64,000 nt of DNA from positions 36,257-100,256 of IMG/VR virus record IMGVR_UViG_3300042291_001557; one strand, 5' to 3'. Shown here one piece after another: positions 13,075 to 62,883 of the stretch. Origin of the DNA: a virus. Both the position numbers and the translations under genes were made by a program. How positions within the stretch are numbered: position 1 is the stretch's first letter; each line of letters starts with the position of its first letter. A model generated the notes under the pieces. The model had not been told where the DNA came from. It saw nothing but the letters and a program-made list of their open reading frames with translations, and did not search any database.

Positions 13075-13094
13075 CCCCGAACTGATTGTGAGGC

Positions 13095-13379
13095 TTAAAA
13101 CCACCAGAAGTGTTTAAGAATTGAAAGGCTAGCCAAAATCACCCACATAACATTGAAAAGGATAATCGTGGGGAGCGTCTTTTCGGTAGATGACCAAATT
13201 AGGGCGATACTCGAAGCGATGGCAAATATATAAACCCACCACCACTGGTACCCAAGAAGCAGGCCGGGAAAGATGATGGCGATTTTGGTAGCAAAGCCCC
13301 AAGCTTCTACGACGTTTGGTCTAGTCCAGTATCCCTTGTGGGACATTGTCTTTGTTGCCTGTATTACCTTTTTCAGCAT
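13095..13379 (-). CDS. Small multi-pass membrane protein
   Basis: Up to 94 aa; MSHKGYWTRP at 13346 is an alternative start that would reduce the 59-nt overlap with the upstream gene. Hydrophobic stretches IAIIFPGLLLGYQWWWVYIFAIASSIALIW and TIILFNVMWVILASLSIL predict three membrane spans. An inner-membrane protein inside a fibre operon is unexpected. It could be a superinfection or export factor, but nothing in the sequence decides this. Confidence 0.55.
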   Translation of the reverse strand: MLKKVIQATKTMSHKGYWTRPNVVEAWGFATKIAIIFPGLLLGYQWWWVYIFAIASSIALIWSSTEKTLPTIILFNVMWVILASLSILKHFWWF

Positions 13380-13536
13380 TTTTCCTCGCTTTATATTCCA
13401 GTGTCAACAGGTGAAAAATTGTTAATATTGCACCGCCGGAAAAGTGTAACTTCCACCCTAACTTTTTCCAACCCTCTTCCGTATTGGGGAAGACTAAGTT
13501 ATCTGTTTGATAACGGTAATCGCCAAACTTGGACAT
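13321..13536 (-). CDS. Unknown 71-aa protein
   Basis: 71 aa (MSKFGDYRYQTDNLVFPNTEEGWKKLGWKLHF) with one weakly hydrophobic stretch (GAILTIFHLLTL) and a basic tail. It ends inside the next gene and begins 1 nt after the 372-aa gene's stop region. No family recognised. Confidence 0.5.
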   Translation of the reverse strand: MSKFGDYRYQTDNLVFPNTEEGWKKLGWKLHFSGGAILTIFHLLTLEYKARKNAEKGNTGNKDNVPQGILD

Positions 13537-13537
13537 T

Positions 13538-14656
13538 TTAGTTATAGGTCATATAAGAAAGAAGTGCTTTTTTTGCTGCTATTTCCTCGGCACCTGTTGG
13601 GCGCACTGTTGGAATAAGTAAGTTTTCGGACTTCTCAATAAACTCAAAAATTTCTTCTGCCGTCGTATTGCTGCTGTCTATCTTAAAATCCAAACAAGTT
13701 TTATATATAACGCCTTCTATTTTAGAATTCTCTACCGCTAAAACGTTTGAATCAATGGTTATATCCTGTGGGTAATTTGCAACGAGGGAATTCAGGGAAA
13801 TATAGCGCAGTTTTTTTCTAAGCCAGTCAAGAAATAGTGGGCTTATGTCTATCTGTTCAATAAAGTCTTGCCTCGGGTTATCTGTTTCTAGGAGGTATCT
13901 GTAAACCGGCATGTTTTCTTGATACTCGTTAATCTCGTCAATAACTTCTGGGGGCATTTTTATCGCCTCAAGATAACTCTTTGCATCAAGCGCTATTTCA
14001 TCCGTAACGTTAAAAGGTTCTTCGGCCAAAGAAGCCCACTCGATTACTAGTTTCATGCAGCCCATAAAAGTCTTTGACATGCCAACCACGGCAGGCCAGT
14101 CTCTATAGGAAGTTCCGATATCGGAAACCCGCATGTAGCTGACAGTAGATGTTCCAGCAACACTCAGCAAGCTTGCAACCCGTTTAATTGTGTTGTTGTT
14201 TATTTTATTTAGGTCAGCTATGAATGGTTTTATCCCATCTCCCACCGGATACGCCATCGCCATGAATAAATGTGTTTCGCACCTGTTCTTGTAGTCCCAA
14301 TACGCATTGACAAATTTTGACTCTACTTGCTGCTTCATTGACACTGAATTATAGAAAGAAAACGTATCACTTTCAAGATGACTGGACATAAATGCATATT
14401 CATAAAAATGCTCGTAAGGCATCCACTGGACGATTGATTCGCCCTCTTCGTTAACGAGAACATAATTGTAGTCAGTCTTTCCCAGGTCGAAATTACGAAA
14501 AGCAATTATCTGGTAGTTATCTGCAATAAAGATGTCATATTCCGTATATTCAACATCTCCGTTTGGGTGTCTTATGTAAAGTTTGAAGTCGTCCAAGGAT
14601 TCATGAACGTAGTAGCAACCATAAAGAGATGGGTCTATTTGAGACGTGTTATTCAC
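13538..14656 (-). CDS. Unknown 372-aa protein, unique to cassette B
   Basis: 372 aa, acidic, with an N-terminal beta-rich part (YGCYYVHESLDDFKLYI, YNYVLVNEEGESIVQW) and a helical C-terminal part rich in Glu. No nucleotide-binding or catalytic motif was seen. Three nt separate it from the upstream 264-aa gene. In cassette A the equivalent position holds the third oxygenase, so this gene marks where the two cassettes differ. Function unknown. Confidence 0.6.
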   Translation of the reverse strand: MNNTSQIDPSLYGCYYVHESLDDFKLYIRHPNGDVEYTEYDIFIADNYQIIAFRNFDLGKTDYNYVLVNEEGESIVQWMPYEHFYEYAFMSSHLESDTFSFYNSVSMKQQVESKFVNAYWDYKNRCETHLFMAMAYPVGDGIKPFIADLNKINNNTIKRVASLLSVAGTSTVSYMRVSDIGTSYRDWPAVVGMSKTFMGCMKLVIEWASLAEEPFNVTDEIALDAKSYLEAIKMPPEVIDEINEYQENMPVYRYLLETDNPRQDFIEQIDISPLFLDWLRKKLRYISLNSLVANYPQDITIDSNVLAVENSKIEGVIYKTCLDFKIDSSNTTAEEIFEFIEKSENLLIPTVRPTGAEEIAAKKALLSYMTYN

Positions 14657-14659
14657 TTT

Positions 14660-15454
14660 TTACTTCCTTTTGAGTATTTTTTTAATTATACCTTTTTGTT
14701 CAGACTGCTTATCTAAAGCATTATCAACAATTACCCTATTGCGACGATAAGGACCAGCAGTCCCATCGCTTGGGGCAACGTGCCCTGTCCCAAACCCTGT
14801 TGTAGCAACGTATTTAAAGTAAGACTCGTCGTTGAAGATTATTTCCCCAAAGTCGGAGTTGCGCTTAAACGGAACTACCTGACACATCGGTGTTCCGTAT
14901 TTTATGGAAAACGGCCTATCACCAATAGGGTTAATAACCATGTTTGCTAAGTGGTAGAAATCCGTATGAACGATTGACGGAACGAGCGTGTAGTCCTCGT
15001 TTGGTTCCCAGTACGGTGGGAGAATCATCGACGACCAGCCTGGGGCTGTTTCAAAGCGCCACGGATTAATTATCTTTGGGTATTGGCCCGTTGCTACTTT
15101 TCTGACAGCAGTCATTGGGCATTCACCGGTGGAGTGAGCAGAAAATCCTGATATTGAATTTATCCCAGCTTGTGGTGCAAAATCGTCCCCCGCCGTTTCC
15201 CATGTCTCGCCATTTGGGTCTAGACGGAATCTAAAATTTGTCCACATAGGAATAGTGACGCCAGCAGTAAGAAAATCTATTGTTCCAGCGCATTTGCGAA
15301 TGGAGCCCTGATGCTTACCAATTTTCTTAAACCACATAGGAGGATTCTGTACTGTGTTAACAAATGGAGGCATCTCCATCAATCTGTTATCCATCGGTGT
15401 GAATCTTATTTGTCCAGGTTTTACTGGCGGCATCTTGGTCATTATTGGTTCCAT
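14660..15454 (-). CDS. Conserved phage protein of unknown function, cassette copy B
   Basis: 264 aa, paralogue of 4689-5468 (see that entry for the shared motifs: KPGQIRFTPMDNRL, GVTIPMW, TGECPMTAVRK, VHTDFYHLANM). The two differ in the N-terminal third and in the C-terminal ~30 residues, where this copy has a basic tail (GIIKKILKRK). It overlaps the halogenase stop by 13 nt. Retention beside both halogenases argues for a coupled role. Confidence 0.75.
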   Translation of the reverse strand: MEPIMTKMPPVKPGQIRFTPMDNRLMEMPPFVNTVQNPPMWFKKIGKHQGSIRKCAGTIDFLTAGVTIPMWTNFRFRLDPNGETWETAGDDFAPQAGINSISGFSAHSTGECPMTAVRKVATGQYPKIINPWRFETAPGWSSMILPPYWEPNEDYTLVPSIVHTDFYHLANMVINPIGDRPFSIKYGTPMCQVVPFKRNSDFGEIIFNDESYFKYVATTGFGTGHVAPSDGTAGPYRRNRVIVDNALDKQSEQKGIIKKILKRK

Positions 15455-16950
15455 TCTTTGTCAATCAACACAATTTCCCGCAAAGCAGTAGCGTGGTCGA
15501 CTTGTTCGCCACTATTCCGATTTGCTTTGTATTCTGCAATTTTTTTCTCAACGCTTTGCCGTATCCCAAGCCTATTGAGGGCAGTGGTGGCCGCATCTGG
15601 ATTGATGGCGTTTTGACCTTGAGCAACATGCCACAAGTGTGCCGACAAAAACATCTCGCCGTTTAATGCACTAAAATCAAATCTGGTTGGTGGACGCTCC
15701 GCCCATAACTCAATCATCTCCTGCAATTCTTCATTGAGTGGCGTTACTGACATTTCCCGCCAAAATGGAGTGTCCTGCCTATCCGAATAATAATGGAGAC
15801 GAACCATCGTAAGAATATTGCGCATCATCAGCTTCATGCTGGCGTTAAAGTGTTTCTGAGATGCTGTGTGCCCAGGTTGATACGAAGCAAGATAGGGGAC
15901 AATTTGTTTTACTTGCTGAATTGTTGAACCTATGCTAGAGGCCTCTAATGGCTCCACAAAAGAAGAAGCCAGCCCGATTGCACAACAGTTCTTTACCCAT
16001 GTGTTCTTTAGATAGCCCGCGTCAAAATTAATAACACGATGGGCTTCAATCTTGTAGCCGGACATCTCTTCGGCTTCACGTACCGCTTCTTCTTCGGTTA
16101 TAAATTTAGACGAAAATACGTATCCGTTTCCACGCCGTTCTTGAGTGGGGAGTTCCCAGAGCCACCCGGAAGAGGCAGCACGAGCACGTGTGTAGGGACG
16201 AATTCTTCCGTTGGGGTCAGATTCCGTAGGAAACGCAATTGCCGTATCGCACAAAAGATGGTCACTGAAAGAAGACCAATCATCTGCCCCAAGTTTTTTC
16301 ATCAATATTCTGCTAAAGCCACTAGCGTCAAACCAAAAGTCTGACGCAATGGTTTCATTTGATTTGGTTACTACGGATAGTATATTTCCGTTTTCGCTAT
16401 CAAGATTAATAGAATCTACTTCTGCCTCAATAAACTCAATCTGTCTCTTGAACGCCAGAGTAATTAGATAATTATTTAGCTTATGCGTATCAAAATGGTA
16501 TTGATTTGTAGACCGGTGCATTCCCGCTTTGCTGATTTTGTCTTTTACCAATGCAACGTTCGTAATCTGTGGGGTCAAAAGCTTCCCCTCTTCCAGATAT
16601 TGCATATAAGTTGCGTGTGCTCCAAAAGCATAAATATCATCTACGTCACCTACGCTATGAAAATAGTCAGGATTTTTTGTTGTCCAGTTTTCAAATCTAA
16701 TTCCGTACTTATGCGTACCAGCTGTCTCGACAAGCATTTCTTCAATAGGGATGTCACATAGGTCAGCAAACTGACGCCAGTGTTCCGTGCTTCCCTCCCC
16801 CACGCCAATAATCCCAATTTTTGAGGACGATACAACTTTTATTCCCGCTATGGGAAAGGCTTTGCGCAAAATCAAAGAAGCAAGTAGTCCTGCTGTTCCA
16901 GACCCGACGATGGTAATAATAAATGGTTTTTTTTCTTGTTTGTAATCCAT
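15442..16950 (-). CDS. Flavin-dependent tryptophan-halogenase-like enzyme, copy B
   Basis: 502 aa. GSGTAG (16-21), GVGEGSTEHW (49-58), K81 in HKYGIRFENW, the signature as WLWELP (263-268, Ile changed to Leu) and EPLEASS (333-339). Compared with copy A it has about 24 more residues, in an N-terminal extension, an insertion near residue 105 and a longer C-terminal helix. The conserved core (SSGWxWExPTQERRGNGYVFSS) is nearly identical, so both copies appear to be under selection for activity rather than decaying. Different substrates or different positions on one substrate are possible reasons for keeping two. Confidence 0.9.
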   Translation of the reverse strand: MDYKQEKKPFIITIVGSGTAGLLASLILRKAFPIAGIKVVSSSKIGIIGVGEGSTEHWRQFADLCDIPIEEMLVETAGTHKYGIRFENWTTKNPDYFHSVGDVDDIYAFGAHATYMQYLEEGKLLTPQITNVALVKDKISKAGMHRSTNQYHFDTHKLNNYLITLAFKRQIEFIEAEVDSINLDSENGNILSVVTKSNETIASDFWFDASGFSRILMKKLGADDWSSFSDHLLCDTAIAFPTESDPNGRIRPYTRARAASSGWLWELPTQERRGNGYVFSSKFITEEEAVREAEEMSGYKIEAHRVINFDAGYLKNTWVKNCCAIGLASSFVEPLEASSIGSTIQQVKQIVPYLASYQPGHTASQKHFNASMKLMMRNILTMVRLHYYSDRQDTPFWREMSVTPLNEELQEMIELWAERPPTRFDFSALNGEMFLSAHLWHVAQGQNAINPDAATTALNRLGIRQSVEKKIAEYKANRNSGEQVDHATALREIVLIDKEWNQ

Positions 16951-56175: not shown

Positions 56176-56424
56176 TTAGAAGCCGGCACGCCGAGAGTCT
56201 CTTGCCAACCTAAGACGGTCTGTCTCACCAAGTCCGCCCCAGACTCCAAAGTTCAGTGCGTTGTCAGTTGCGTACTGCAGGCAGTCGGCAGAGACAGGGC
56301 AAGTCGAGCAAACTTTCTTGGCTTGCTTGAGTTCCGTATTTGACGAAGGGAAAAACACAGACTTATCCATGTCTTTACAGTTTGCCTGCTCAACCCAATT
56401 ACGTTCGTACAGTGCCATACTCAT
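56176..56424 (-). CDS. WhiB-family Fe-S regulator (second copy)
   Basis: 82 aa. C in EQANCKD, then CSTCPVSADC (C-x2-C-x5-C) and FGVWGGLGETDRLRLARDSRR, the canonical WhiB turn and basic tail. Shorter and closer to host WhiB proteins than the copy at 43422. It is the downstream gene of the 56857 promoter and begins at the base where the upstream stop ends. A candidate for binding sigma at the repeated promoters. Confidence 0.88.
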   Translation of the reverse strand: MSMALYERNWVEQANCKDMDKSVFFPSSNTELKQAKKVCSTCPVSADCLQYATDNALNFGVWGGLGETDRLRLARDSRRAGF

Positions 56425-60245: not shown

Positions 60246-60275
60246 AACCTATCAAACCCTACGAACGACTTACAA
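60246..60275 (-). promoter_or_regulatory. TTGTAA-18-TAGGTT promoter, leaderless
   Basis: Core GTCGTTCGTAGG; 6 nt to the ATG at 60239. parS begins 7 bp upstream of the -35. Confidence 0.85.
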
Positions 60276-61458: not shown

Positions 61459-61459
61459 A

Positions 61460-61493
61460 CCTGCCCCTATCACAGCGGGGCTGTAGGGGCAGG
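61460..61493. terminator. CCTGCCCCTA / TAGGGGCAGG hairpin
   Basis: Perfect 10-bp stem with CGGGGCT in the loop, between the back-to-back promoters at 61429 (minus) and 61501 (plus). May insulate the two units. Confidence 0.5.
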
Positions 61494-61500
61494 CCGGAAG

Positions 61501-61530
61501 TTGTAGGCCGTGCGTAGTATTTGATAAAGT
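61501..61530 (+). promoter_or_regulatory. TTGTAG-18-TAAAGT promoter on the plus strand
   Basis: Same design and core (GCCGTGCGTAGT) as the minus-strand family, the only plus-strand copy. No ORF follows; it reads into the ncRNA. Confidence 0.8.
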
Positions 61531-61536
61531 GGACTT

Positions 61537-61725
61537 ATCGGCAAAGGACACCGAGTGGAAACCAAAGACTGAGGCAACTCGGCGACTGGGAGTGCCACAA
61601 ATATGCAGGCAAGCCCTATCTGTCGGATTGGTTCACGACCGGAAACCTCCCTCATCTCTCTGAGGGTCAATGGTGAATCACAGAGAACTAGAACCCTAGC
61701 CCTCAGCAGGCTGGGGTTCTTTTTT
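61537..61725 (+). ncRNA. Structured non-coding RNA, about 190 nt
   Basis: Start set 7 nt after the -10, end set by an intrinsic terminator (AGAACCCTAGCC/GGCTGGGGTTCT plus six T, 61690-61725). Internal stems include CCGAGT/ACTCGG and CCCTCA/TGAGGG. No start codon with a good frame exists on the plus strand. It matches no RNA family I know (tRNA, tmRNA, 6S and RNase P were considered). Confidence 0.7.
61690..61725 (+). terminator. Intrinsic terminator of the ncRNA
   Basis: 12-nt arms with one mismatch, seven-base loop, T6 tail. The strongest plus-strand terminator in the window. Confidence 0.85.
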
Positions 61726-61851
61726 GCCACCGGAGCCCCGGCACGGGTAAAAGAAAAAGCCACCCGAAGGTGACTCTTTCTTTCTTTGCTCAACCAGTAC
61801 AGCGACTAACTGGGAGCAAGAACTTTCTCGCTGTCGCTGTTCTACGAATTG

Positions 61852-62031
61852 TTATCCGTAGTGTTTGCTCACCCATTCAGGTGAATTGGTATCTTCTTCT
61901 TCGTAAGTGAAGAAGGCGATATTTTTTCTAAGCCATTGAACCGTGGTGTATGCGCCGACTGTGAATATTCCCACGCCTGCGCACTTGACCAAGAACCAAG
62001 TGACGATAATAAATGCTTTTGCTGTTTCCAT
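61852..62031 (-). CDS. Small membrane protein (59 aa)
   Basis: 59 aa from the ATG at 62031 by the leaderless rule. AKAFIIVTWFLVKCAGVGIFTVGAYTTV is one long or two short spans; the tail TYEEEDTNSPEWVSKHYG is acidic. First residues METAK match those of 63569-63703. Not a known family. Confidence 0.65.
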   Translation of the reverse strand: METAKAFIIVTWFLVKCAGVGIFTVGAYTTVQWLRKNIAFFTYEEEDTNSPEWVSKHYG

Positions 62032-62375: not shown

Positions 62376-62412
62376 TTTGCCCCAATGGAGAGCGGGGCTC
62401 ATTTGGGGCAAA
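62376..62412. terminator. TTTGCCCCAA / TTGGGGCAAA hairpin
   Basis: 10-12-bp stem with CGGGGCT in the loop. Suitable end for the minus transcript from 62623. Confidence 0.55.
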
Positions 62413-62616
62413 AAGAAAGACCTACCGCCCCACCTCCGACACTAGGGCTAGCACCCACTTAAACTAGAGCAGTAATCGCGCGTAGAGGACGGATGGACTG
62501 TGGCGGATGCGTGATGGTCGTACGCCCATCAGAGGCTTGCTGTCCAGAGCCTTATCCTGCGGAGGGACTGGTGCGGTTAAGTTGTATCGGAGGGGAGGCG
62601 GTAAGCCTCTCTCACA
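62413..62616 (-). ncRNA. Possible non-coding RNA from promoter 62623
   Basis: The family promoter at 62623-62652 is followed on the minus strand by ~200 nt without a usable reading frame, ending at the 62376-62412 hairpin. Contains GAGGCTTACCGCCTC, a 5-bp hairpin near its 5' end. Either a small RNA or a leader of the 62338 gene; the second is less likely because that gene has its own promoter. Confidence 0.45.
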
Positions 62617-62622
62617 AAGACC

Positions 62623-62688: not shown

Positions 62689-62883
62689 ATGAGTTCAGAA
62701 GATTACACCAAAGATGATTTAGGTCGAGACTTGTTCTTGATGGTCAAGGCCGGACTACTTGATGTCTCCATGAGAGAAGATGGCGAGTGGGTCTATAACG
62801 TCAGTGAGTCTTCATTGCTGCTCTCGGAAGAAGAGAAGGCAGACATTATTAGCCGGCTGGACGATTACGACGACATCTATTAG
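62689..62883 (+). CDS. Unknown acidic protein (64 aa), plus strand
   Basis: 64 aa: MSSEDYTKDDLGRDLFLMVKAGLLDVSMREDGEWVYNVSESSLLLSEEEKADIISRLDDYDDIY. The DLFLMVKAGLLDVSMREDGEWVYNVSE part looks like a small winged-helix or phage regulator fold. It is the only plus-strand protein gene in the 48.5-64 kb array and shares a divergent control region with a promoter of the P18 family. Confidence 0.65.
   Translation: MSSEDYTKDDLGRDLFLMVKAGLLDVSMREDGEWVYNVSESSLLLSEEEKADIISRLDDYDDIY

Follow-up and report, generated by a model that had tools for sequence, protein, structure and literature searches.

A virus genome fragment of 64,000 nt, the whole of which we refer to as the window (bases 36257-100256 of a 100-kb virus record), carries what is very probably a real gene for a structured RNA that is independently transcribed. 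This RNA, here called RNA1, stands between a promoter and a terminator of its own, and diverged homologues were found in three other viral contigs (L106, L107 and L113). As our main reading we propose, at a probability of about 0.5 for the proposal as a whole, that RNA1 is a stand-alone cassette that would be made together with the early proteins of the phage and would act in trans by binding a protein or ribonucleoprotein. Apart from tRNAs and cis elements, phage RNAs known to keep a conserved fold are few, and early phage genes have been studied mostly as proteins.

The window encodes a portal protein, a large terminase, a tail sheath and a prohead protease. Since relatives of the terminase in isolated phages include many from actinobacterial phages, among them those of Gordonia and Brevibacterium, and since a WhiB-type protein is encoded at 56176-56424 (-), the host is likely actinobacterial; going by the look of related contigs, we infer a freshwater source. 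Tryptophan halogenase-like and PAPS reductase-like proteins are also encoded in phage, at 15442-16950 (-) of the window and at 13089-14228 (+) of contig L004. Small minus-strand genes form an array in the right part of the window; about 18 are leaderless, their ATG following the -10 box of a common promoter by 6-7 nt; the small proteins of this regulon are probably early, host-takeover proteins. Many unrelated small leaderless genes begin with near-identical codons (ATGGAAACAACAGCGACA-like), for example those at 60275, 62067 and 63739 (-), and gene starts of this kind recur in L099, L104 and L106, possibly as a translation signal within leaderless mRNAs. Contig G046 is 99.8% identical to the window over 12.9 kb and extends 4 kb beyond the window end.

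The common promoter follows the consensus TTGTARGYCnnnCGTAGK-N6-TARRKT. A stringent pattern requiring both boxes at free spacing was found twice in the window and never in 100 shuffles, while the 18-nt upstream motif occurred 23 times against 0.18 expected. G046 carries 27 copies on the gene (minus) strand and a single plus-strand copy, TTGTAGGCCGTGCGTAGT-N6-TAAAGT at 61501-61530, which bears out the original prediction of an orphan promoter on the opposite strand. That prediction had also called the copy perfect; it lies well within the family but has three mismatches to the strictest 18-mer. As predicted too, no ORF follows it: at the expected leaderless start, 6 nt after the -10 box, the sequence reads AUC, where about 18 sister promoters have ATG, and the homologues have no reading frame in common.

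Within each phage the early promoter is uniform, and it differs between phages, the -10 box and the leaderless start being kept: it reads TTGTARGYCnnnCGTAGG in this phage (promoters 51204-66844, window and G046), TTGTTAGTCGTCCGTAAC in L104/L105, TTGTCGGTYnnGGGTGGG in L106/L107 and TTGTGnTTnC..CTAGTAAnnGATAGAGTG in L113. The pattern resembles that of immunity systems, as if in each phage a regulator had changed in step with its many sites. Inverted repeats lie directly upstream of promoters of the family, at 61459-61500 and 62376-62405, with a central GCCCCGC (CCTGCCCCTA...TAGGGGCAGG; GCCCCAA...TTGGGGC), each a candidate terminator or regulator site. A further small gene, at 62689-62883 (+), is a rare plus-strand member of the minus-strand array; it is apparently leaderless from TTGGCA-17-TATGCT, and its orthologue in L106 (4619-4819) is likewise opposed to the array.

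We place the 5' end of RNA1 6 nt beyond the -10 box, at AUCGG, a position that agrees with that in L113 and L106/L107 (Table 1). At the other end, the terminator hairpin (61690-61720) has 12 pairs and a 7-nt loop and is followed by TTTTTT; it is the strongest of 11 candidates in the surrounding 6 kb and stands where a strong terminator had been predicted, about 190 nt after the promoter. The folding energy of RNA1 gave z = -2.66, with one of 200 shuffles as good. ARAGORN matched no tRNA or tmRNA, and there is no tRNA gene in the window. Downstream of RNA1, no plus-strand gene begins before 62689. The terminator-like stem on the minus strand would serve the upstream minus-strand gene at 61852-62031 (59 aa, starting METAKAF), which is convergent with RNA1.

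Table 1. Positions of RNA1, its elements and neighboring features in the window
Feature	Position	Strand	Basis
Upstream box of the phage-specific promoter, TTGTAGGCCGTGCGTAGT	61501..61518	+	pattern search
-10 box TAAAGT, at the family's fixed spacing	61525..61530	+	pattern search
RNA1, structured noncoding RNA, 190 nt	61537..61726	+	promoter, terminator, homologues
5' hairpin P1, UCGG/CCGA, loop CAAAGGACA	61538..61554	+	alignment
Helix A: 61629-61636 UGGUUCAC with 61673-61680 GUGAAUCA	61629..61680	+	covariation
Hairpin B within helix A, CCCUCA/UGAGGG	61649..61666	+	covariation
Pseudoknot C: 61655-61659 UCUCU (loop of B) with 61682-61686 AGAGA	61655..61686	+	covariation
Intrinsic terminator of RNA1	61690..61726	+	12-bp stem, TTTTTT
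Terminator-like stem, GTCACCTTCGGGTGGC, T-rich tail	61749..61777	-	sequence; kept in L104, L105 and L106
RNA2, structured noncoding RNA, 216 nt	62402..62617	-	promoter family, fold, covariation

Collinear relatives of the window were reached through early-gene profiles. L104, L105 and L106 have neighboring genes as in the window, and the early region of L106 and its near twin L107 is collinear with that of the window. The L106 copy of RNA1 lies in the gap beside the orthologue of 61852-62031, oriented to that gene as in the window, and a pattern built from the window and L106 copies found those in L107 and L113. The comparison comprises three really different sequences from four contigs, L106 and L107 being near-identical. 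All have a core in common, GGATTGGYTCACGACC ... AATGGTGARTCACA, and a model of this core (R1) scored 78.8-95.4 bits (E 4e-21 to 4e-26) on all four sequences, which are its own training sequences. The RNA1 cassette is missing from L104 and L105 though both flanking orthologous genes are present, and a model search of these contigs (36.6 and 27.7 kb) did not find it.

L113 is a 5-kb contig with an SNF2-type helicase. Since it has no detectable protein in common with the 50-64 kb region of the window, RNA1 is kept there without its neighbors. Its RNA1 runs with the neighboring genes, so that the predicted opposite-strand placement is true of the window but not general. The L113 copy has the promoter TTGTGG...CTCTAGTAAnnnnTAGAGTG, whose family has about six further members in the contig, while in L106/L107 RNA1 has TTGACA-17-TAATGT, outside the regulon family; the predicted shared control with the early regulon was thus found in this phage and in L113 but not in L106/L107. 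Despite these differing promoters, all homologues start AUC(G/A)G at a constant 6 nt from the -10 box, and the terminator is conserved across them. Judged by this constant start under different promoters, RNA1 stays while its promoter changes.

The fold of RNA1 was compared across these lineages. In the 5' hairpin P1, one pair is compensated, from G-C to A-U in L106/L107; the 5' half of these two copies aligns poorly and may fold differently, and their middle part differs too. The core consists of the long-range helix A (UGGYUCAC/GUGARUCA), with one compensatory change and its remaining pairs invariant, the enclosed hairpin B, whose letters differ by lineage while pairing is kept, and the 5-bp pseudoknot C, in which the loop of B pairs just downstream of helix A. 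Pseudoknot C reads CCCCU/AGGGG in L113 and UCCUU/AAGGA in L106/L107; we recognized it visually in the very sequences compared here, yet its register does not shift among them although three sets of letters are used. In the model alignment, 97.4% of cells in the core are paired and six of 19 pairs have changes on both sides; for pseudoknot C alone the figures are 100% and three of five pairs, and those for hairpin B are slightly too low, as the window copy is one column out of register there. Six compensated pairs were equaled by two of 500 shuffles, and the covariation score of 0.439, against 0.208 in shuffles, was reached by none of 500; these figures rest on three distinct sequences and should be read with care. 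When partners were slid by 1-3 columns, pairing fell to 38-58%, and RNAalifold's own prediction contained seven pairs kept by changes on both sides. Covariation in homologous loci, which the original prediction had proposed as a check, was therefore found, in six of the 19 core pairs, three of them in pseudoknot C. Unpaired letters of the core, including GGAU, GACC and AAUG, are as invariant as the paired ones.

We then searched for known relatives. No Rfam 15 family reached the gathering threshold in the window or in the L113 and L106 loci, which agrees with the prediction of an RNA outside known classes, and at lax thresholds no family matched the RNA1 core in more than one homologue. The one low E-value, for ctRNA_p42d in L106 (E 0.00044; 26.9 bits vs a threshold of 50), comes from a match over the terminator hairpin. 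Isolated phages, plasmids and about 85,000 prokaryote genomes contained no relative of RNA1, the blastn matches in isolated phages and plasmids being terminator-like chance pieces. In 50 viral contigs, nearly all of them terminase relatives (81-100% identical), blastn for RNA1 found only the near-identical G046, and the promoter motif occurred in nothing beyond it. A CM search of viral contigs returned the known members and weak matches in G027 and G030, of which the G027 match reads as unrelated sequence. A relaxed pattern matched 33 viral stretches, of which we judged those outside the known loci (at most 21.2 bits with the CM, many with the same 44-nt span) to be chance; so too two pattern matches in WOR-3 and Planctomycetota MAGs, where the fold fails and which apparently lie within or beside genes. 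L099 has the same promoter motif, and RNA1 was not found in its 7 kb. In the literature we found general papers on structured RNAs and one on a mycobacteriophage ori RNA, none with a match to RNA1. RNA1 is a new RNA family, of a general kind, small structured RNAs made by phages, that is already known.

Several other explanations of this locus were weighed. That a promoter and a terminator flank intergenic filler by chance, the segment being untranscribed or a relic, would fit with RNA1 being known here from sequence alone, but it is very improbable given compensatory changes in three lineages, a start position kept under different promoters and a conserved terminator. The same low standing applies to a gene for a small peptide, such as one reading AUGGUGARUCACA (M-V-[N/S]-H) with GAG(A/G)G upstream: each of the three distinct sequences has the AUG and a purine-rich stretch there, yet the candidate has nine codons in the window, its frames elsewhere cross the terminator, its residues diverge beyond four codons, no ORF is common to the homologues, and helix A accounts for the conservation of these letters. 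RNA1 might instead act in cis, as an antisense to a neighbor, the leader of a downstream gene or a replication primer; in the window the 3' side of the 61852-62031 gene faces it on the other strand, and phage noncoding ori RNAs of a similar general kind exist in cluster A mycobacteriophages (PMC7157519). We consider a cis role rather unlikely because the neighbors of RNA1 and its strand relation to them differ in L113 and a strong terminator is present, the next plus-strand gene lying only at 62689; moreover, RNA1 is absent in other phages having the same genes, and, short of a systematic search, neither parABS nor RepA was noticed nearby.

Readings in which RNA1 pairs with other RNAs bear more directly on its action. 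The original prediction suggested that it targets leaderless 5' ends, so that RNA1 would be a base-pairing small RNA controlling the leaderless early mRNAs of its own regulon. It is indeed co-regulated with leaderless genes in this phage, and their similar ATGGAAACAACAGCGACA-like start would offer a common target. However, duplex energies, computed plainly without accessibility, did not favor this suggestion: the mean for RNA1 against 28 regulon 5' ends was -23.15, compared with -22.95 for shuffled RNA, and 37% of shuffles did at least as well. A lone low energy with the 51277 transcript was a long gapped artefact. RNA1 shows no complementarity to the ATGGAAACAACAGCGACA-like start in its conserved letters, and its promoter in L106/L107 is not from the regulon family; control of these mRNAs by pairing is therefore distinctly unlikely. 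Pairing with host RNAs (mRNA, rRNA or tRNA) is a common mode of bacterial small RNAs, and the purine-rich P1 loop AAAGGACA is conserved in the window and L113. Conservation is nevertheless concentrated in the pseudoknotted core and not in an open seed, and the P1 loop is altered in L106/L107, so that we give pairing with host RNAs a minor though appreciable chance.

Our preferred reading remains a trans-acting RNA that binds protein. What is conserved in RNA1, a pseudoknotted core whose unpaired letters do not vary, is met more typically in RNAs with a protein or ribonucleoprotein as partner, and we favor such binding from these letters together with the failed base-pairing test. The self-contained unit of promoter, RNA and terminator sits between two phage genes in the manner of a protein-coding moron. 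In this phage and in L113, RNA1 has a promoter of the phage's own regulon and is therefore likely early; transcribed in vivo, it would there be made alongside the small, probably early, host-takeover proteins of the regulon. Its folded shape is most likely what acts in trans: helix A, hairpin B, pseudoknot C and the invariant GGAU, GACC and AAUG would form a compact surface that binds a host or phage protein or ribonucleoprotein and so helps takeover, candidate partners being the transcription, translation or RNA-decay machinery or a defence system. That an RNA is kept across phages without any other detectable common gene, and with its promoter exchanged, points to a real function in infection, and RNA1 offers a compact core open to direct testing.

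The only other family promoter with no ORF behind it, at 62652-62623 (-), precedes a second structured RNA, RNA2, which is closed by a long helix between its 5' and 3' ends (z = -4.28). Close homologues are present in L106 (4905-5114) and L107 (2841-3050), and a second, diverged copy in L106 (6539-6749, back to back with RNA1) and L110 (8867-9077) keeps the closing helix by compensatory changes. RNA2 had no match in Rfam or in phage records, and a duplex of RNA1 with RNA2 was not better than shuffled. It has several CCUCC motifs resembling the anti-Shine-Dalgarno sequence, and one idea is that RNA2 may interfere with host mRNAs led by a Shine-Dalgarno sequence and leave the leaderless mRNAs of the phage unaffected. 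Both ORF-less promoters of the family here led to conserved structured RNAs, which makes orphan copies of regulon promoters a useful route to phage RNAs. Tentatively, RNA1 may even found a new class, a mobile, promoter-swapping RNA moron whose core would redirect a host machine (RNA polymerase, ribosome, RNA decay or a defence complex) and which would work together with RNA2 of the same regulon; this is possible but doubtful.

Among known systems, RNAs C and D of T4 are stable small phage RNAs of unknown function that lie within a tRNA cluster. RNA1 resembles them as a short phage-made RNA outside protein genes (their sequences were compared by blastn of phage records only), but it has a promoter to itself and a pseudoknotted core that covaries, and the window has no tRNA gene. 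The pRNA of phi29 is part of the packaging motors of small podoviruses; like RNA1, it is a phage RNA of similar size with loop interactions, whereas the tail of this phage is contractile and its large terminase is of an ordinary type, and RNA1 is without an Rfam match. Alma and LadyBird, mycobacteriophages with extrachromosomal prophages, have noncoding ori RNAs next to parA (PMC7157519), which, like RNA1 of the window, are actinobacterial-phage noncoding RNAs transcribed against their neighbors; theirs, however, lie in the prophage replication region, while RNA1 lies in an early-gene array and has no homologue in phage records. Phage morons share with RNA1 a promoter and terminator of their own (for RNA1 in the window, L113 and L106/L107), placement as a unit between two phage genes, and presence (window, L106 and L107) or absence (L104 and L105) at the same place. 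Morons encode protein and have a generic promoter, whereas the RNA1 cassette would make an RNA, in two lineages from the phage's own regulon promoter, and is thus moron-like in organization only.
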